Below are positions 25 to 63,734 of a stretch of DNA of 64,000 bases, piece after piece. The notes beneath the pieces are model-generated. The model saw nothing but the letters and a program-made list of their open reading frames with translations. It did no database searches and had not been told where the DNA came from. Made by a program: the position numbers and the translations under genes. The stretch's first letter is position 1. Each line of letters begins with the position of its first letter. Source of the DNA: Semisulcospira habei (lineage: Eukaryota > Mollusca > Gastropoda > Semisulcospiridae); contig BTPG01000001.1 of NCBI GenBank assembly GCA_036245525.1, forward strand, positions 223,696,418 to 223,760,417. The letters are read 5' to 3'.

Positions 25-144
25 CTTAAAGGGCGGTGCCAGAATAGCTTGGCGCCTCAGGTGCCAAGCTGTTCTGGCACAACCCATGAATTATCATAGT
101 CAAATTAATTTCGAGCAGCCGTGTCTCAGGATGGAAAGGGTTAA
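25..144. repeat. Family A TTAA hairpin element, left end missing
   Basis: Inverted arms (GGTGCCAGAATAGCTTGGCG and its complement) surround a short loop near position 55. The right terminus ends GGGTTAA at 138-144. Sequence left of about 26 does not match the other copies, so the left half is lost. The equivalent complete element in the other duplicate is at 14914-15128. Confidence 0.8.
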
Positions 145-4738: not shown

Positions 4739-4830
4739 TTAACCCGTTGCGTGTTGGTAGAGTTTTTTTTCGCGATGATTCCTGACGGAATCATAGTGGC
4801 AAAAGCCGCTACCGACACTCAAAGGGTTAA
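4739..4830. repeat. Family B TTAA hairpin
   Basis: 92 bp bounded by TTAA. Inverted arms carry TTGCGTGTTGGTAG and CTACCGACACTCAA. The centre is GATGATTCCTGACGGAATCAT. Related copies are at 19024-19113 and 21684-21774. Confidence 0.8.
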
Positions 4831-9100: not shown

Positions 9101-12100
9101 TAGCAGAAGTTATCGGGTGGGGGGGGGGGGGGTGGACTTTTTAGACAGACTTCAGAAAAATGTACAGATGATTATCTGCTCGAGAATTTCCTTTAGAGAC
9201 TCAGTAGCGGGATATACCCACATGTAGGTATAGGATCACTCATAATTTCAGACTGTAAACGCATACAATTTGATATTACCATCGAAAAGAGGACATATAC
9301 ATGTGTGGTCGTGCAAAATTTCAAAGCTCTACTTTTTATAGTTTATGAAAAATTACAACTTGATTTGGCGAAAATGAGACGATTTGCACATTTCATAAAA
9401 TGCTAAGTTTAGGGTCGCATAACTACATAATCTCCAGACTGCCAATCTAGAATGCTGTACTGATTAAACCCAATACCTAGTTTGTACTGATTATTTTACA
9501 GCTCCAATAATAATATACTTTAGAATATATGACATACTAATTTTCTTTTAGAAATCAACATCGAATAGCGCGCTTTATGATGGTAGCAGTCAACACTCGC
9601 GCTCTTTTCCGTGAAGCACGCATCAGTAGTACGCTTGCCGGACCCCGACTGAAGGGGCAGAGTCAAATAACAAATAGATCGGTCAATACTTACCGACAGT
9701 TATTTTTCTGTCATACAGGCCCCAGCGTTGAGGCATATAAATGGAGTTCCTCTGTGGTCGATGGGAACACACTGGAGATTTGCAGTGGAGGCAGCGCTCT
9801 CTTTTACGTCCCGTTCACTACAAAGAGCAATGAAAACGTAACGGCTAGACAGGTTTGTTCTTTCTCTGTCCCTGTATTTCCTTTAACTCATTCTGCCCGC
9901 GACACACCACGGCAAGATGTGACTCGACTAAAATAGTTCAAGGGTTGTGGCAGAATAGCTTGGCGCCTACCGACTTCCATTTATAACGCGAAAAGTGTCT
10001 GTAAGTGTACCCGCAAACAAAGAGCCACCTTGACAGCAAAACAAGAATGTTATTTGTTGCTTACTTCAGATGTTCAGCTACCTTCACAGAAAAATTGGAT
10101 GAGTTCTCGCCCATTGCTACCTTGGAGGACACAGAGTTTCAACGTGGTGGTGAAAATAAGCAAAACTGGACACTCTGTGAAGCAAGTTTCCTGTGGTATG
10201 TTTTAACACAAGTTGTGTGGATTGCTTATGATAACTGCCTCAAACGAAATTCGACTCGAAAAATTCATTAGAGAACCAGAACTTCCGGTGCACGTCATTT
10301 TCTTAATCTTATTTGATTTAATGTGAATTACTTTCAAACCATTTTTTATGCTCCAGTGACTGACACAGAGATAAAGAACACGCCCATATCTATTTGATCA
10401 GGTAAATATGGCCGCTAACCTAAAAAAAGAACTTTTGGGATTTTCATGTTTGTAGGTCATGTTGATTATTTAGGTGCCATTGACAAACGAAAAGTAGGTC
10501 AAGGCCAAACGGGCCGGATTTTCATGCACACGGACCCTAATGACACTGCACATTGGTTGGCTTTCAGCGGTGTCCTCTGCAGATGCTCCCCATATCACTT
10601 TTAATATCATGTGATGTTAGTATCACTGAAGACGTCAACCGTCATCGATGTGCGATTTTTAAGACTAAACATTCTATTTGCACACGACATATAAAACACT
10701 TTTCATAACATTTTATAATAAATTGCGTCAAAATAACCCGGATTAAAGCATATTTACGAAGAAAAGCGCTGTGGTGAAAAATTCGCGTTTTAAATGAAAG
10801 TCAGTATATAATCGATCTGTCTCCTGAATTGTAATGCAGTTCTCAGAGGATAACTCCAAAACGTTGGTATTTCGTAGCTCGGGAACAATGAGTTAAATCA
10901 ACCTGCTCAATGGATGGTATTTTAGAAGATTCTCAACTGAGGCAAAACACCTGAAAACCCTTGTATCGTCGGAATTGTAGCAATCAAAGACCGCCATGCA
11001 CACACATACAAAAACAATACTTTTCGAATCTCTATCGCTGTGACATAACAGAGTGACGCGGTAATTAAAGTCTGGCCATTGACTAGAACCCGATTTTGCC
11101 ATTTCAGTGTAATAGTGCTATTTGTTTCCTCACTAGATTTCACATTTACATTCTTTTCATTTTTATACAGCTTCTGCTGTTTCATTTGTACTGGCTCACC
11201 GGATATTCTTGTTATTTTGGTGCCCCCACCCGGGTCTGCCCTGAGGGACGGGTGGGGTTAACTACTTTTTAGTTCCCAGGGTCACCCTGGTCAGCCCCAC
11301 AGGGTGGGTTTTCCCCTCTATTTTGGGCATGTTTTTCTGTCTACCCTTGGTACATTCATCTGTATTTTCCTTTTTTAAACTCTCCCTACTGTCTGCGCTT
11401 CCTGTAACTCTTGATATTGGATGTGTGTTGCTAAATGGTCTCTTTAGGTTTATTTAGCGTATTAGACCGGCTGGCGACATACATTCAATGTTCTTTTTTT
11501 TTCACGTCCTGAGAAAGCCTTGTTGCTGTCGGGACGTTAAGCAATGTACAACCTACGTACAACCTATTATTTTTTGGTGATACTGCTGATGGAAAATAGT
11601 GAAGATGGTATTGTGTGAGGGCGATTCATTTGCCAGTTACTGTGTTTGAGGAACTAAACACATTTGGACAGTATAGTGTGCGGTTGACATATATGACCGA
11701 ACGTACAATTTTAGAGTAAATAATAAGTCACTATAACCATGTTCCTTGAGTTTAAAGGCCACACGCACGAGTGATTTTGTAAAGTTTTGTAAAGTAACAA
11801 CTTCCTTGAAGTGCAAGTTTTTCCGACCAGGACATAACAGAAAACAGTTTGTGCCATTCTTTGCAAGAAAATAAGCTTGTAGAAAGATCGGTGGTTTAAC
11901 ACTTAGCAGCAAACACGGAAACGAGTCGGTCCTTTAACTCATTCGAGACGTGCCACCTCCGGAGACGGCACGTCTCGAATGAGTTAACGTGAATGTCCAG
12001 GTTTAGCGGTATGTTTCGGTAATTGTGCGATTTCTGATTTGAGGGGTACATGTATTCCATGCCTCGTATCTTCAGCATTAACAATTGAAACTAACGCGGG

Positions 12101-15100
12101 TCGCAGAGTTGGAAAGACTGACAACCCAATGCGCAAAAGGGCATCGGACCGACGGGCCAACGGCGGCCGATTTCGGCCCGATGGGATGGACTTTGCGCAC
12201 GGGGAATGTGACAAAGTTTGAACTGTTTAATATTAAGTATAAAACATCATGTCCTAAAATATCGAGCGTTGAATCTTTCTCTCCTTTAAAATTTTCTGTA
12301 TGTAACCGCCTGGCGTCTGTGATAAATACTTGGCACTGAATGTCTCCTGTATACATGTTCTCGGTATGTCTTACAACAATTCTGTACACAAGTAATTGAA
12401 TTACGAGGTTAAAGTGAAGTAAAATTAAAAAAACTTCTGCTCATTTCCTCCTTTATTTATAGGAGAGTTCCACCGACAGGTGCAAGAGGTACACTGTAGT
12501 AGAAAAGCTGTTAGTGGTGTTTACTTGCATCAGTCACATGGATTGTGATCAGTCTTAGTTGAGGCGAGACAACATTGATTACCCCTTGTCATCGGCGAAT
12601 TTTAGCAATTAAACCCGCTCTGGAGAGATCGATTTAATTGCATTGTCTAAATAACAAACTATTACATGTTTATTATACACAGTCTTGAAATTGCATGCGT
12701 GCGACTGTGAAGTGTGGTTAAAACAAGCTTTTCAGCTGGGACGTGAAGGAGCAGGAAAAAGTCGACTGTGGAAACCAAAAGGTATAACAGACCCCTTGAC
12801 TGCTGCTGAAAATGATAATGATGATGACGATGACGATGATAATAATTACTATCTACGTTATAAGGACAATAGTAATACATTATTATTATTGTTATTGTTA
12901 TTGTTATTGTTATTGTTGTTATTGTTATTATTAAATCCTCTGCGTAGGTCCAGCATACTGGCGGTGACCCGGCGCGGGTCCGTCTCACACCGTACGGGTT
13001 CACCGTGTCCAAAGTCAACCTGTCTGATTCTGGCAATTACACTATAATCATCACCATTGCTGTTCGTGAGTCTGACCACGTGTCCTATGTCAACTACAGC
13101 CAGACCAGGACCCTGCGAGTGTTGCGTACGTATAACTGAACCCAGTAACTGCAAGGCCCTCGGGACGACTGACATCATCCCGAGTACCTTCTGCGTACGG
13201 GTCAGTCTGTCCAACCTTCCCTCATCCCATCCCAACCCCTTCATTCCATTCATCTCATCCCATCCATCGATTGATTGATTGAGTCATTGATTGATGATTA
13301 ATTGATTAATTGATTCATTCATTAATTGATTCATTCAGTGACTGATTTCATTGATTCATTGATTTATTTTATTCATGCATTGAATTCTTGCTTGTTTGAT
13401 TGATTTTCGATTTCAGAGGCACCAGTGATAAGCGGCTTCAGGCTGACCGCCTCCTTGATCCACCGCATGCGGAAACTACGACCAGTCGGGACCACTGAGG
13501 GTAGCGCGTGGCACATCGTACTATCTTGCGGGACCTTCATTAGCATGGGCTACCCTCCGGTCGATGTGTTTTGGATGGTAATATTTTTCTGCTATAACAT
13601 GGAAAAGCCTGTATGTGCAGTTTTCAGAAAAGCTTAATTTTCATTATTATACAATACAAATTTAGCTTTTAAAAAAATAATGGACATGCTGGCCTTCGAC
13701 ATAAAACGGCAGTATTAACCCTTTTAACCCCATGGCCGCATTTCACAAATTTGGAGGCGTCACCTAAGGAATTGTAAGATATAGGTAAACCATGCTAATT
13801 CAAGGGTAGTGCCAGATTAGCTTGGCGCCATCAGGCGCAAAGCTAATCTGGCACTACCCTTGAATTAGCGTGGCCCAGCCATCTCCGGTAGGGCGTCGGA
13901 GCCAAATGGGTGAATGACATTTATTTGTAACGGATTGAATCATGTCGTCATAGGCCAAAGATCACAGACCTAGTTGATTATATGGCTTTTGGTCTATGTC
14001 GACACGGTTCTCTCCCGGTTACTTGCGATTTTCCTACTTACAACTAAATGACGGGCCGTTCACCCAAGTTCCATAATTTTTGCTGTTTTTCTCATATACC
14101 ATGTTTTCAGTGGCATTTCTGCAGTCAAATGGCGATAGCCAGTGTGTCCATTTAAAAAAAAAAATAGAAAAGATAGATTTTCATTGCATAATAATGAAAA
14201 TCTCAAAAATGGAGATTTTGACTTTTGAAAATGACATATTTACTGTTTGCTAAATTGATAAAGATGCCATTTGACCACTATAACCTTTCACTTTGTAGAA
14301 CTGAATAACGCATGCTAATTTAACTTGATCTTCATAAATTTAAAAAAAAAAACCCACAGGGGTTGTCGAGCGATAACCGCGCACTGACACGCGGAGACGC
14401 TCGCTCCACAGAGATTGTATTGTATTGGGTGTGGTGGCGGTGAACACTCGGTTGCGCAGCGGTTGTCTCTCATTTCAGTACAGAGCTCGTAAGGCCCCTT
14501 TTTGATAAAGGCTGCGTGCAGACTAAACGAATAGCTCCCTTTAACCCTTTTCATCATGACACACCCATTGCTTGAAGTAAAGTTGACTAATAGTTCAAGG
14601 GTGGTGCCAGTATAGCTTGGCGCCTGAGGCGCCAAGCTATTCTGGCACCACCCTTGAACTAAAACTGTTGATCTATCTCCTAATCAGTAATGTAGCCTTT
14701 GTAGGACAATAAGGAAATTACAAAAAAATCAGCATCAGGATGTAATGGATTAACAAGGCCTTAAAAACTATTTACTCTATAGATGTTTTAGTGGTTCAGG
14801 TGTGTTTTGCGCGTGGTCAAATGCACATACAACATAGCTGCCCTTATTTGGCAAAAGCCAGTAAGATCATTTATAAGTCTGTTACTATTATTGTAATAGA
14901 CTTACGTAGTCACTTAACCCATTACATCCTGAAGCTGATTTTGTTTCAAAGTTGCTTATTGTCTTCTGAAGGCTACATTACAGATTAGGAGATAGATCAA
15001 TCATTTTAGTTCAAAGGCGGTGCCAGAATAGCTAGGCGCCTCAGGCGCCAAGCAGTTCTAGCACCACCCTTGAACTATCATAGTCAAATTAATTTCAAGC

Positions 15101-15931
15101 ATCCGTGTCTCGGGATGAAAAGGGTTAATGAAAAATCTTGCTTTTCTCCAAAACGGACTTGGTGGCTTTTGCGACATTACGACCCCTAGAGCAAAACGTC
15201 TTCGGGCCCACGACGGCCGCAGTGGGCCCGCGGAAAGCCGTGCCCTGGCAAACTGCGCCGTCGTGGGCCCGAGGACCTTTGCTTACCGGGGACTGACCAT
15301 GGTCCACGGTACGTTTACGTTCACAAAGACGTTTGAAGCACAAATTTGACCAACAACCCGAAAGGGACACTACCAAAGGAACGTATTTGTTCACATCTTT
15401 AAGTAGTCAAGTAGTCTTTACGTATATCCTGCATGAGTAATTCTAATACGTACAGTCATTGTGGTCCACTGGCATTTAGCAAAAAGAAAATAAAATTCCA
15501 CTGAAAGCATGGCGTCGTATTACTTAAATACAACAAACATATACTTGAGGTAACAATTGAAGTGTTCCCAATAACCAATTACCTCATGCATGTAATCGAC
15601 GACTGAGTGTAGACAACCCAGAAAGCAAAGGTCTTAGAGCTGGTTTCTCTTGTTTTGATTTCAGACGCCATCCGGGAATGTCTTTAACGGTAGCGAACAG
15701 TGTGAGAACGGGACTTGCTACATGAACGTGAACGTGGAGGATGCTGGTACCCGGTACACCGGACAATACGCGTGCTTCGTACCCGCGTTTCGGGACAGTG
15801 CCGTACGATGCGAGCTGTTCCCGTACAGATACTACGCCGCAGTCTTCATCACATCGGCTCAGATCAAGCAGATGATCGACTGGGTGCATGGCTGGGAAGC
15901 GGCACAGAAAGTTGTACAGGGAGCTCCGTAG
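6137..15931 (+). CDS. Secreted two-domain immunoglobulin-fold protein, complete gene
   Basis: Five coding exons join in phase: 6137-6194, 9719-9852, 12948-13125, 13417-13577 and 15665-15931 (798 bp, 265 residues). All introns are GT-AG. Residues 1-20 form a signal peptide with no charged residue. The first Ig-like domain (about 21-123) has Trp28, Cys41 and the LSDSGNYT motif (89-96), but the usual second cysteine after Tyr95 is absent. The second (about 125-240) has Cys161, Trp176 and the Y-x-C motif at 212-214, plus extra cysteines at 190, 195 and 226. Six N-glycosylation sequons are visible. There is no transmembrane segment or GPI-type tail, so secretion is inferred. Ig-fold secreted proteins in molluscs often act in recognition or signalling, but no specific family could be assigned. 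A second copy of the last exon lies at 723-971. The start is the first of two adjacent ATGs after a good acceptor at 6106-6107. Confidence 0.82.
6229..6286. repeat. G-rich low-complexity tract
   Basis: Runs of 10 to 15 G separated by GGGTTGAGGGTC, just inside intron 1. It could form a G-quadruplex or alter splicing, but that is only a possibility. Confidence 0.7.
6691..6919. repeat. Two family F hairpins flanking an inverted spacer
   Basis: Hairpins at 6691-6755 and 6855-6919 have arms starting CAAGAG and ending CTTGC. The spacer between them is itself inverted (GTGTTCACATTTTCTC against GAGAAAAAGTGAACAC), so the whole block folds at two levels. Confidence 0.65.
6926..7180 (+). repeat. SINE-like dispersed repeat, internally deleted copy
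   Basis: Starts at CACCCGGGTCTGCCCT and ends in an (AATC)n tail after AAGCAATGTACAAT. The middle is deleted relative to the full copy at 7876-8262. Confidence 0.65.
7181..7732. other. Intron 1 DNA with G-rich and TTA repeats, no gene
   Basis: Contains a GGGTGG-rich run at about 7520-7557 and an ATT/TTA repeat at about 7651-7705. Nothing else was recognised. Confidence 0.5.
7733..8502 (+). repeat. Cluster of three SINE-like repeat copies
   Basis: A 5' module (CCCGGGTCTGCCCTGGGG onward) occurs at about 7733 and 7876. A 3' module (GACCGGCTGGCGACATACAT through AAGCAATGTACAATCAA) ends at about 8260 and 8502. The full unit is about 385 bp. No tRNA-type B box was found, so the SINE label is provisional. 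Confidence 0.65.
8503..9718. other. Rest of intron 1, no gene recognised
   Basis: Contains an imperfect direct repeat with GGCTAAATTGGA at about 8952 and 8992, and a poly-G run at about 9118-9133. No exon-like segment was recognised. Confidence 0.5.
9719..9852 (+). CDS. Ig-fold gene exon 2, first Ig domain, N-terminal part
   Basis: Acceptor CATACAG precedes and donor GTTTGT follows. Encodes residues 20-64 with Trp28 and Cys41 and the NVT sequon. Enters in phase 1 and leaves in phase 0. Confidence 0.78.
9883..9975. repeat. Half copy of a family A hairpin element
   Basis: Begins TTAACTCATTCTGCCC and runs through AGTTCAAGGG to the GGCGCC core at about 9965-9970, then stops. The right arm is missing. 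It lies just downstream of exon 2. Confidence 0.7.
9976..11221. other. Intron 2 DNA, no gene recognised
   Basis: No coding segment with splice support was found. AT-rich unique-looking sequence. Confidence 0.45.
11222..11553 (+). repeat. SINE-like dispersed repeat, nearly full copy
   Basis: Same 5' and 3' modules as 7876-8262. The 3' end AAGCAATGTACAACC is followed by a short duplicate of itself. Confidence 0.65.
11934..11987. repeat. Family C short TTAA palindrome
   Basis: 54 bp from TTAACTCATTCGAGACGTGC to its near-perfect complement ending GAGTTAA. Related copies are at 21509-21559 and 60987-61063. Confidence 0.8.
12122..12202. repeat. Family E GC-rich palindrome
   Basis: Arms CCCAATGCGCAAAAGG and an imperfect complement (CTTTGCGCACGGGG) flank a centre with GGCCAACGGCGGCCG. 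Diverged copy of the element at 54897-54993. Confidence 0.6.
12885..12937. repeat. (TTATTG)n microsatellite at a splice acceptor
   Basis: T-rich repeat ending about 10 bp before the exon 3 acceptor, so it supplies most of the pyrimidine tract. A GAT repeat lies upstream at about 12810-12840. Confidence 0.7.
12948..13125 (+). CDS. Ig-fold gene exon 3, first Ig domain, C-terminal part
   Basis: Encodes residues 65-123 with the D-S-G-N-Y motif of Ig strand F. Acceptor is TGCGTAG, and its pyrimidine-rich region is formed largely by a TTATTG microsatellite. Donor GTACGT. Leaves in phase 1. Confidence 0.82.
13264..13385. repeat. ATTG/ATTC tetranucleotide-rich tract
   Basis: Imperfect ATTGATTG and ATTCATTC units fill much of the short intron between exons 3 and 4. 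Confidence 0.8.
13417..13577 (+). CDS. Ig-fold gene exon 4, second Ig domain, N-terminal part
   Basis: Acceptor TTTCAG and donor GTAATA. Encodes residues 124-177 with VLSCG (Cys161) and VFWM (Trp176). Leaves in phase 0, which matches exon 5. Confidence 0.78.
13715..13914. repeat. Family A hairpin element (subfamily A2)
   Basis: Starts TTAACCC and ends GGGTGAA, a mutated TTAA. Arms of about 35 nt surround the GGCGCC core at about 13827. Lies in intron 4. Confidence 0.8.
13926..14540. other. Intron 4 DNA, no gene recognised
   Basis: AT-rich, with a short A run at 14153-14165. No exon-like segment was seen. Confidence 0.4.
14541..14753. repeat. Family A hairpin element (subfamily A3)
   Basis: TTAACCC at the left and GGATTAA at the right, with a 34-nt inverted arm around GGCGCC. 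Its outer arms match those of 14914-15128 in the opposite orientation. Confidence 0.85.
14914..15128. repeat. Family A hairpin element (subfamily A3, inverted relative to its neighbour)
   Basis: TTAACCCATTACATCC at the left and GGGTTAA at the right, 215 bp. It is the duplicate of the truncated element at the start of the window. Confidence 0.85.
15204..15295. repeat. Family E GC-rich palindrome, duplicate copy
   Basis: Same block as 197-290 in the first unit. Confidence 0.6.
15665..15931 (+). CDS. Ig-fold gene exon 5, second Ig domain, C-terminal part and stop
   Basis: Acceptor ATTTCAG. Encodes residues 178-265 with the T-G-Q-Y-A-C strand-F motif and ends Q-G-A-P then TAG. Nearly identical to the upstream paralogous exon at 723-971, apart from a six-codon insertion and scattered substitutions. 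Confidence 0.85.
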   Translation, partial: TPSGNVFNGSEQCENGTCYMNVNVEDAGTRYTGQYACFVPAFRDSAVRCELFPYRYYAAVFITSAQIKQMIDWVHGWEAAQKVVQGAP

Positions 15932-18129: not shown

Positions 18130-18343
18130 TTAACTCGTTCAGCTCGACGACCGTATTTCCCAAATTTTGGAGGCGTCATCTAACGACTACGCACATGTTG
18201 CAGGAGATGGATCGACCATGATAATTCAAGGGTAGTGCCAGATAAGCTTGACGCCGACAGGCGCCAAGCTAATCTGGCACTACCCTTGAATTATCATGGT
18301 CGACTCACATCCTGCTGTAGTGCGTCAGGGCTGAGTGGGTTGA
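18130..18343. repeat. Family A hairpin element (subfamily A2)
   Basis: 214 bp from TTAACTCGTTCAG to GAGTGGGTTGA (right TTAA mutated). Nearly perfect arms around GGCGCC. Confidence 0.85.
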
Positions 18344-19023: not shown

Positions 19024-19113
19024 TTAACCCATTGCGTGTCGGTAGCAGTTTTAGTCACGATGATTCCTACAGGAATCATCGCGACTAAAACCGATTCCGA
19101 CACGCAAAGAGTT
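19024..19113. repeat. Family B TTAA hairpin
   Basis: 90 bp from TTAACCCATTGCGTGTCGG to CCGACACGCAAAGAGTTAA. The centre GATGATTCCTACAGGAATCAT is a perfect palindrome apart from its middle. Confidence 0.85.
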
Positions 19114-19974
19114 AAACGATGCAGAACTAGGAATTAACGAAGCCAATAAATATTTGATAAAGCATACGTATGCAAGCACACAGATACGGTGTAGCAACAA
19201 AACGATAAGACTAAAAGCAATTTTCTTAGTTTTAAATACTCAGCCTACAAAAATACAGCACAGCCAGTGCATCAAACTTTGCCGTAACTGATACAAGGCG
19301 CCCAGTATCCATAGCTGCTAAAATGTGGCGTAGCGTTGCCTGCTATACGACACTTCCACAGCGATTTACGACACTTTCGCAGCCTTAAATAATTTCAGAT
19401 TTATGAATTCCAGAAAAAAGTGACTGGCAAGAATGTCAAATGCACGAAAACAACCAACAGGGACAAAAAACAAACAAAACGCTTCACAAAGGGTAAAACA
19501 AAAGAATGTTTTGGTCATCACAAAAATAAACGTATATCATTCACGATAAATACATATTTTTGAAATACTAGGCAAGAACCAAACAACCAGAACCTGAACC
19601 AAAACACACACACGCACGCACACACACACGCACGCACGCACATGCGCGCACACACGCATACACACAAATCAATGAGCATAAAATTAGCTAAGTACGTGTG
19701 TTTTTAGTCTGTGATTTTGAACCCTACGCACTAACCAGTGCACACTGTGTTACATATTACGGGACTATCTAACTAATCACGGCTCAAAAGTGTTTTTTGC
19801 GCTTGCAAGATGATGAATTCAAACAATCGTCTCTTCCCTGCCGATAGAAGTGAAACAAATTACTGGAATGAGGTATCATGGACTATTGTCCTGAAAGACA
19901 CTGACTGAACGACACATTCCACTGGAGCCTGCGGCATGATGTGTAAATAGATCATCATGAGCCCGAGGATTCTA

Positions 19975-20787: not shown

Positions 20788-21118
20788 CTTTTTTTCCACC
20801 AGGAGTTTCCAGAACACCTACTAGACACCGACTAGTCCCACGCCGATTCCCAACCTTTGATTTCTTATCTGTTGAACTCTGACACGATACCGCTCGGTGG
20901 AAAATACCCGTAGCCGGCCGCGATATCGAACGATATAGTCTATAGTAGTCAGGTGATTAACTCATTCCACACCAGGACCGAAATCGTCCAGTTTTGAAGT
21001 TGCCCTCTGAAGGATTGTATTACAATTCTAGAGAGATCGAGCATGATAGTTCGAGGGTGGTGCCAGAATAGCTTGGCGCCTATGGGCGCCAAGCTATTCT
21101 GGCACCACCCTCGAACTA

Positions 21119-55503
<34,385 letters not shown>

Positions 55504-56265: not shown

Positions 56266-56479
56266 TTAACTCATTCTACCCCAACACCGAAATCCCCAAA
56301 TTTTGCCGTTGTCCTCTGAAGACTGCACTCTAGTGCAGGACATAGATCGACCATGATAGTTCAAGGGTGATGCCAGAATAGCTTGGCGCCCATAGGCGCC
56401 AAGCTATTCTGGCATCACCCTTGAACTATCATGGTCGATCCTTATCTTGCTGTGGTGTGTCTGGGGTAGAAAGAGTTAA
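56266..56479. repeat. Family A hairpin element (subfamily A1) with paralogous empty site
   Basis: 214 bp from TTAACTCATTCTACCCC to GGGTAGAAAGAGTTAA. The matching place in unit 2 (59246-59249) has one TTAA and no element. Confidence 0.9.
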
Positions 56480-58828: not shown

Positions 58829-59040
58829 TTAACTCACTGTTTTCAAGGTACAAAATACCCACATTTTGGAGTTATCCTGAGGACTGCATTACAATTTAGG
58901 AGACAGATCGACCATGATAGTTCAAGGGTGGTGGCAGAATTGCTTGGCGCCTATAGGCGCCAAGCAATTCTGCCACCACCTTTGAACTATCATGGTCGAG
59001 CCATACCTCGCTGTGGTGTGTCGCGGGCAGAATGAGTTAA
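58829..59040. repeat. Family A hairpin element (subfamily A1)
   Basis: 212 bp from TTAACTCACTG to GCAGAATGAGTTAA with very long perfect arms around GGCGCCTATAGGCGCC. Confidence 0.88.
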
Positions 59041-59980
59041 CACTATATCGCTACGTACAAGTTTGTCTTATTAAGTTGTTTTTTATATTTAATTTTTTTC
59101 ATTTTTTAAATTTATTTTTTATTTTTACACCAGCGTTAAATAGCCAGCGTCTGGTTTCGGATGAACCCTTCATAGCATCAGATTTTTAAATACTATTGCA
59201 TCTTCATGGTGACTATCACCCCAGAGTCAAAGGTCAGTTATAAAGTTAATTTTTCTTCATTTATAATATCAGCGAATATGGTCAGTCATAAAATACAAAA
59301 TACACAAAGTATGAGATAATGCCACACGCTCCACAAACTTTGAACCTGAACTATATTTTCATTAGTGCTAAGGTCGGTTTACTTGGAATACGGAATTTCC
59401 AATTTTTGACGCCCCCCCCCCCCCACTCTTCCCCAGTCTCTTTCCGTTATTACAAATATTTTGCAGAGCAAGAAAGTAGGAACAGAGGTGTTGACGCCTT
59501 TATTTGCAGTAAACCTAGTTTTCATGAACACCGGCGACCAACGGTGAATCGTCAGTCTGAGAACGGGTGTAACCCGCGCCTGTCATTTGTTTCAAACAAA
59601 ACGTAATGGTATATAATAATATATAATGGGTAGGTGGGGGGTGGGGGAATAAGGGGGGGGGGGGGCGGGGCGCAATTACGAATTATGTCAAAGGGATGTA
59701 GGAAAGTGCCATAGAATGTCATACCAGTTCCTTCGATATTGCAGTTATTTTTGCAATTGTTGTTTTTATTTTTGTCTCTGGAGGAGGCTTGGCTAGTAGG
59801 GAGTAATGTAGCGATTGAGGAAAGAAATATGGCAACATGAAACTTTTGCATACAATGTTTAGATGTGATAATTATGACATACTTGCCACACGACAGGCTC
59901 AGCCTCCCGGTCCGGCCAAACTGAACCACTGGAACGGACTGAAGAACTATGCTCAGTTGCATGAGTGGGAACTTAGTCTT

Positions 59981-60986: not shown

Positions 60987-61063
60987 TTAACTCATTCGAG
61001 ATTTGTCGCATCAGGATACGCGGCATAAGCGTATCCGGATATCATTCGTCTCGAATGAGTTAA
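60987..61063. repeat. Family C TTAA palindrome, longest copy
   Basis: 77 bp from TTAACTCATTCGAGA to TCTCGAATGAGTTAA, with inner GGATACGC and GCGTATCC arms. Confidence 0.82.
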
Positions 61064-63238: not shown

Positions 63239-63452
63239 TTAACTCATTCTACCCCAAGACCGAAATCCCCAAATTTTGAAGTCGTCCTCTGAAGATTGCG
63301 TTGCAGTGCAGGACACAGATCGACCATGATAGTTCACGGGTGATGCCAGAATAGCTTGGCGCACATAGGCGCCAAGCTATTCTAGCATCACGCTTGAACT
63401 ATCATGGTCGATCTTTATTTTGTTGTGGTGTGTCTGGGGTAGAATAAGTTAA
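63239..63452. repeat. Family A hairpin element (subfamily A1)
   Basis: 214 bp from TTAACTCATTCTACCCC to GGGTAGAATAAGTTAA. Very similar to 56266-56479. Confidence 0.88.
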
Positions 63453-63506: not shown

Positions 63507-63734
63507 TTAACCCGCATCGTACTGAGGCTAAAAGCTTCAAATTTGTACACTGCCATAATATGCAAGCTACATTACAATACTTACAGATGAGGACATAGAC
63601 ATAGATGAGGCTTTAGTTCAAGGGTGGTGCCACAATAGCTAGGCGAGAGGCGCCAAGCTATTCTGGCACTACCCTTGGACTATTTTAGTCACACTTGTTG
63701 CACACACTGGTGTATTCCGAATGATAAGGGTTAA
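63507..63734. repeat. Family A hairpin element (subfamily A3)
   Basis: 228 bp from TTAACCCGCATCG to AAGGGTTAA. Core arms are shortened at GCTAGGCGAGAGGCGCC. Confidence 0.8.

Follow-up and report, generated by a model that had tools for sequence, protein, structure and literature searches.

In the genome of Semisulcospira habei, short non-coding DNA transposons (MITEs) make up a very large and recently active family, here called family A. Its members very probably form a non-autonomous piggyBac-type family that inserts into TTAA by cut-and-paste, with duplication of the TTAA. The elements are built around a palindromic core whose arms are conserved more than the spacers and the ends, and this core is the part that lineages keep. 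Matched changes in the two arms were seen in family A and in two further families, C and D.

The window, i.e. the whole stretch of 64,000 nucleotides that was analysed (C1:223696418-223760417, within the 1.98-Gb genome), contains thirteen copies of family A, which had been listed in a first-pass annotation and were all found again (Table 1). TTAA borders had been ascribed to every one of them. They were observed for nine of the thirteen copies as delimited and for ten after one element was redelimited, but not for the copies at 13715, 18130 and 25-144. The redelimited element had been placed at 9883-9975 and is indeed present there, but its true extent is 9883-10896 (1,014 bp, minus strand). 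One arm and approximately 840 bp of other DNA lie between its ends. This interior has no match elsewhere in the DNA collected (window, fetched loci and a 200-kb sample), and the element might be a longer form or a form with captured DNA.

Table 1 Coordinates of family A copies and related features in the window and, for families C and D, in sampled loci (L numbers)
Feature	Position	Strand	Remarks
Young family A copy	56266..56479	+	214 bp, TTAA at both ends
Hairpin core of the 56266 copy	56345..56440	.	arms at least 44 bp, complementary at all 44 pairs tested; folding gives a loop of 4 bases
Family A copy	25..144	+	without left half, right TTAA kept
Family A copy	9883..10896	-	1,014 bp, TTAA-bounded, left arm replaced by ~840 bp of other sequence
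Family A copy	13715..13914	+	type 2 core, right end TGAA
Family A copy	14541..14753	-	relative of the 14914 copy, reverse orientation
Family A copy	14914..15128	+	TTAACCCATTACATCC end type
Family A copy	18130..18343	+	type 2 core, right end TTGA
Family A copy	20957..21168	+	two coupled arm changes (GAGCATG, TTCGAGG)
Family A copy	26705..26918	+	type 2, nearly entire element folds back
Family A copy	31126..31315	+	type 2, hairpin tip deleted
Family A copy	58829..59040	+	two coupled arm changes (GTGGCAG, GAATTGC)
Family A copy	63239..63452	+	91% identity to the 56266 copy
Family A copy	63507..63734	+	TTAACCC(G/T)..ATC end type
Paralogous unoccupied block	59124..59348	+	target position TAAA
Family C	window 11934-11987, 60987-61063; L031:6344-6423; L048:1801-1880; L050:1173-1252; L036:8200-8280		
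Family D	window 4739-4830, 19024-19115; L046:2993-3085; L011:3124-3213		

The inverted ends read TTAACYCATT(C) and TTAACCCTTT, following the pattern 5'-CYC..GRG-3', and the termini are thus CYCATTC-like as first described. Inverted ends starting with CCC/CYC, next to a TTAA target that is duplicated, are as in piggyBac-type MITEs. Several end types surround the common palindrome, namely TTAACTCATTCTACCCC, TTAACCCATTACATCC, TTAACCCTTATCATACTG and TTAACCCATTTAGCCCC. The collected DNA contains 94 paired hairpins, many of them fetched with the 56266 copy as query and this copy being included twice; of the 145 perfect CYCWTT ends in their vicinity, 112 are preceded by TTAA. Anywhere in the 200-kb sample the same is true for only 41 of 451 CYCWTT words, and 24 of these 41 again lie near a hairpin. 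Chance is therefore excluded as the source of the association between TTAA and CYCWTT.

A genome-wide copy search, as proposed in the first-pass annotation, points in the same direction. In the whole genome, 5,297 exact matches (2,593 + 2,704) to the 28-bp left terminus of the youngest subfamily were counted, 4,641 of which (2,264 + 2,377; 88%) are preceded by TTAA; reversed-sequence controls yielded zero occurrences. The other 656 young left ends, which have no preceding TTAA, are compatible with decay or truncation. With the 56266 copy as query, 40 full copies were scored of 867 first-look candidates. All 40 show 99-100% identity and they are spread over eight contigs (C1-C8); the full search score was reached at five places, including the query itself. 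TTAA is present at both ends in 28 of 30 fetched young copies (approximately 99-100% identical to the 56266 copy, which is one of the 30). The two exceptions have TTTT and TTAC, respectively, at the right end.

Abundance was estimated from 20 spread stretches of 10 kb (200 kb in total), which were scanned with a profile of the arm. The 55 matches correspond to 23 paired and nine single hairpins. Since the density differs much among the stretches, with seven matches in one (L040) and none in seven of the 20, the genome total, on the order of 100,000 copies, is only a rough extrapolation. A core 20-mer of family A had zero exact matches in viral and bacterial/archaeal sequence collections. In the open-access literature searched, no publication was found that deals with family A or with arms of piggyBac MITEs changing in a matched manner.

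Unoccupied target sites were sought by comparing joined flanks, with a single TTAA, to the collected DNA. This yielded 76 rows spanning a junction, some of which are nested copies of the family. The clearest case is the insertion in L016, for which 15 unoccupied paralogous rows were obtained. Twelve of them have an exact single TTAA at the junction, with no gap there, and the remaining rows read TTAT, GTAA and TAAA; the alignment on the left side is short (14-20 bases). For the remaining insertions, most of the unoccupied counterparts have a word different from TTAA at this place. L010 aligns across the junction in eight rows with TTAA in one, L005 in six rows with TGAA in five. For L023, which lies inside an older family copy, the relatives read mostly TTAG, and the unoccupied counterpart of the two insertions in L001 reads TAAA in both cases. 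L018 is shorter than its relatives by about seven bases next to the junction. The occupied copies carry TTAA on both sides where the unoccupied relatives read other words, which fits insertion into copies that had first mutated to TTAA. Three further elements (L003, L020, L027) have used the TTAA that borders an older copy of the family as their insertion site.

In the window, the 56266 copy does interrupt a duplicated block, as had been noted: positions 59124-59348 are 77% identical to its joined flanks and gap-free at the junction. The TTAA at 59246-59249, which had been taken for the empty target, instead aligns to a TTAA in the right flank (GTTAAG), while the true target position reads TAAA.

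Transposase genes of the fitting type are present in the genome. In a search with PF13843, all 116 scored matches, of 1,058 first-look candidates, exceeded the Pfam cut-off and 93 were free of stops within the match, whereas none of 14 control genomes was positive in the same search. Some of the matches form groups with identical scores, which suggests recent transposase copies. Together with the TTAA-preceded young ends and the empty site in L016, these many piggyBac transposases support the initial proposal that a non-autonomous hairpin family uses its target in the piggyBac manner, and we infer that one or more of the resident transposases move family A.

The ends of autonomous elements were sought in six 590-base stretches located 3' of transposase matches. 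L051 and L052, which belong to one family, are almost the same as far as ...TTAGTGGGTTAA and differ thereafter. As the divergence follows directly after TTAA, the end of this autonomous element is TTAA-CCCACTAATGCCC. No recognisable element end was found in the remaining four stretches. For a second autonomous element, a presumed terminal sequence of 41 bases did not locate the end. When compared to TTAA-CCCACTAATGCCC, four of eleven left ends in the window (14914, 18130, 56266 and 63239) outscored all 200 shuffles; the other seven left ends and all right ends did not score above the shuffles. The single readable autonomous end is hence similar to the family A ends, but not the same. The first-pass annotation had suggested looking for a piggyBac-like transposase with the same ends: many piggyBac transposases were found, but, with only one autonomous end readable, none with the ends of family A itself. 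Read in one frame, the 3' stretches begin with tails that contain cysteines, such as GLHDKCFQQYHTH, and then reach a stop. A subterminal AAAACCCCTACCC motif is common to L051, L052 and L053, which represent different piggyBac groups; an inverted repeat, GTCCCA..TGGGAC, comes after it.

Mobilisation of family A by another TTAA-using superfamily, Kolobok or Sola3, is very improbable. Sola3 also produces TTAA duplications, and no partner element with family A ends was found. TTAA duplications are made by Kolobok as well as by piggyBac (PMC9587614), but Kolobok ends are described there as 5'-RR..YY-3', while those of family A are 5'-CY..RG-3' and start with 5'-CYC. Ends of the CCCAT and CCCTT kind are typical of piggyBac, for which an animal survey names the motifs CCCTT, CCCAT, CCCTC and CACTA (PMC10813416); the CTC start of the young form is not among these four. 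The abundance of piggyBac genes in this genome likewise argues against the two other superfamilies.

Seven of the 21 reading frames of at least 120 aa in the window were scanned against Pfam; no transposase was detected among them and three were assigned to reverse transcriptase. The window contains an open reading frame of 1,025 aa (37761-40838) with endonuclease and reverse transcriptase domains, which we read as of the non-LTR type. Relatives of its reverse transcriptase are mostly found on short contigs. One of them is filed under Plesiomonas shigelloides and is probably host contamination.

For the comparison of core and ends, type-2 copies were picked by the left spacer alone, which avoids selection for conserved arms. 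This gave 29 matches, of which the 22 full-length ones were used and seven were dropped. Divergence from the consensus was 6.8% in the arms (129/1,890), 15.2% in the left spacer (166/1,095), 11.9% in the right spacer (52/436) and 12.9% in the ends (87/672). The same 22 copies showed 17 coupled changes versus 1.4 expected.

Coupling was also examined in a larger set of 66 hairpins (36 from fetched loci, 20 from the sample and ten from the window), which remained from the 94 paired hairpins after removal of 28 identical or gapped ones. Among its 2,835 cells, 112 have the same change in both arms, 296 a change in one arm only and 24 different changes in the two arms. From the frequencies of uncoupled changes, 6.9 coupled cells are expected. 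When columns were shuffled 500 times with subfamily-wide changes kept, the coupled cells averaged 35.7 and never exceeded 49; the cell counts are inflated by relatedness among the copies. The coupled cells represent 31 types, 20 of which occur in a single hairpin. In family C, 19 coupled cells were observed versus 0.5 expected (shuffle maximum 11, nine copies), and in family D 20 versus 1.4 (shuffle maximum 16, 14 copies, several of them ragged), with a few of these cells falling in loop columns. Members of family C are TTAA-bounded, near-complete palindromes of approximately 80 bp (54-81 bp) with TTAACTCATTCG-like ends, whereas family D comprises TTAA-bounded palindromes of approximately 92 bp that are centred on GATGATTC and have TTAACCCTTTG-like ends. 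A perfect palindrome of 89 bp in L002 (3114-3202), also TTAA-bounded (TTAAAACACGCGCTGGG...), is unlike families A, C and D.

One arbitrarily chosen transversion was followed genome-wide. It is present in one arm of 595 hairpins and in both arms of 29, of which 22 have a loop of four bases, five of three and two of six. The three loop lengths suggest more than one origin of the double change. The expected number, estimated from the collected DNA, is 8.9 or 3.9 and rests on one and three matches, respectively, so that the count at this site is suggestive only.

These observations could quite possibly be accounted for by template-switch (quasi-palindrome) correction or gene conversion, acting in any palindrome and with no role in transposition. 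Such a process agrees with coupling in three palindrome families, with the 20 of 31 coupled types of family A that each occur in a single hairpin and with double changes at three loop lengths, the latter being weakened by the few matches behind the expectation. It agrees less well with the 296 cells of uncoupled change kept in old copies and with the young subfamily, in which all nine arm variants are single-sided (30 copies). A failure of arm variants to spread in the young subfamily is not supported at significance: variants common to several young copies were zero of nine in the arms and five of 20 at other positions, which points towards a need for intact arms but is not significant (Fisher p 0.15, 30 copies).

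We tentatively put forward a reading in which the intact palindrome favours mobilisation, while arm correction may supply the matched changes. Non-autonomous family A copies are very probably cut and pasted into TTAA by resident piggyBac transposase(s), with the TTAA duplicated. The intact palindrome might aid this step, e.g. by offering the transposase a symmetric binding site. New subfamilies would then be founded mostly by copies whose arms match, and spacer and ends would drift meanwhile. For piggyBac, 19-bp palindromes near both ends have been described, and the piggyBat transposase reads palindromes through its two cysteine-rich domains (PMC11707139). Symmetric sites must change symmetrically, and both the central conservation and the coupling would therefore be explained if the palindrome is a transposase site. 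Perfect arms of 44 bp are not explained by a symmetric site, which makes arm-to-arm correction, possibly at replication, a natural second ingredient. The length of the arms (at least 44 bp), far above that of the 19-bp piggyBac palindrome, counts against the palindrome as a mobilisation signal, as does an unmatched arm base common to the 14914 and 63507 copies (GCTAGG). It is conceivable, though less likely than not, that palindromic TTAA-MITEs evolve under a hairpin-specific process that restores or requires matched arms in each round of mobilisation, so that the two arms would change as a unit, with the palindrome as functional core and the ends as replaceable parts.

Two other explanations of the matched arms are less probable still. 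For the fish Angel elements, amplification via a single-stranded hairpin has reportedly been proposed, and in family A one arm would then template the other in each round. The perfect arms of the young subfamily (44/44 tested pairs) and the matched changes by which copies of other subfamilies (20957 and 58829) differ from it would agree with this model. It is improbable, as the TTAA duplication and the inverted ends fit cut-and-paste by a transposase and the asymmetry between left and right is preserved within a subfamily. That compensatory selection acts on an RNA hairpin produced by the elements appears highly improbable. The predicted RNA fold is very stable (down to -137 kcal/mol), but a scan of Rfam gave no family match reaching the gathering score, and a coupled transversion, for instance from A-T to T-A, would require two steps via a mispair.

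By description only, family A can be likened to Angel and other fold-back MITEs, which are short and consist largely of an inverted repeat. With the piggyBac superfamily it has in common the TTAA target with its duplication and C-rich ends including CCCAT and CCCTT (PMC10813416), and transposase genes of this superfamily reside in the same genome; unlike autonomous piggyBac elements, the copies, at approximately 214 bp, offer no room for a transposase. The genome combines a piggyBac-type MITE that has amplified recently with many piggyBac transposases that are stop-free in the matched domain, so that donor and helper are testable together. The thousands of copies also constitute a large natural data set on mutation and correction of palindromes in an animal genome.

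In layout, family A is closest to the CMITEs of Acropora corals (PMC2872659). As reported there, these also duplicate TTAA, have ends mostly of the CCCTTT kind and comprise families with different ends around a better-conserved internal region, which is their chief peculiarity; an element-free allele was observed as well. CMITEs are approximately 100 bp long with an internal region of 75 bp, for which the account of their structure describes no palindrome, whereas family A has approximately 214 bp and a central palindrome. Their number in A. millepora was estimated at approximately 1,600 copies, compared to thousands in one subfamily of family A alone. The conserved palindrome with its matched changes bears on the question raised by CMITEs of why the interior is kept while the ends drift.
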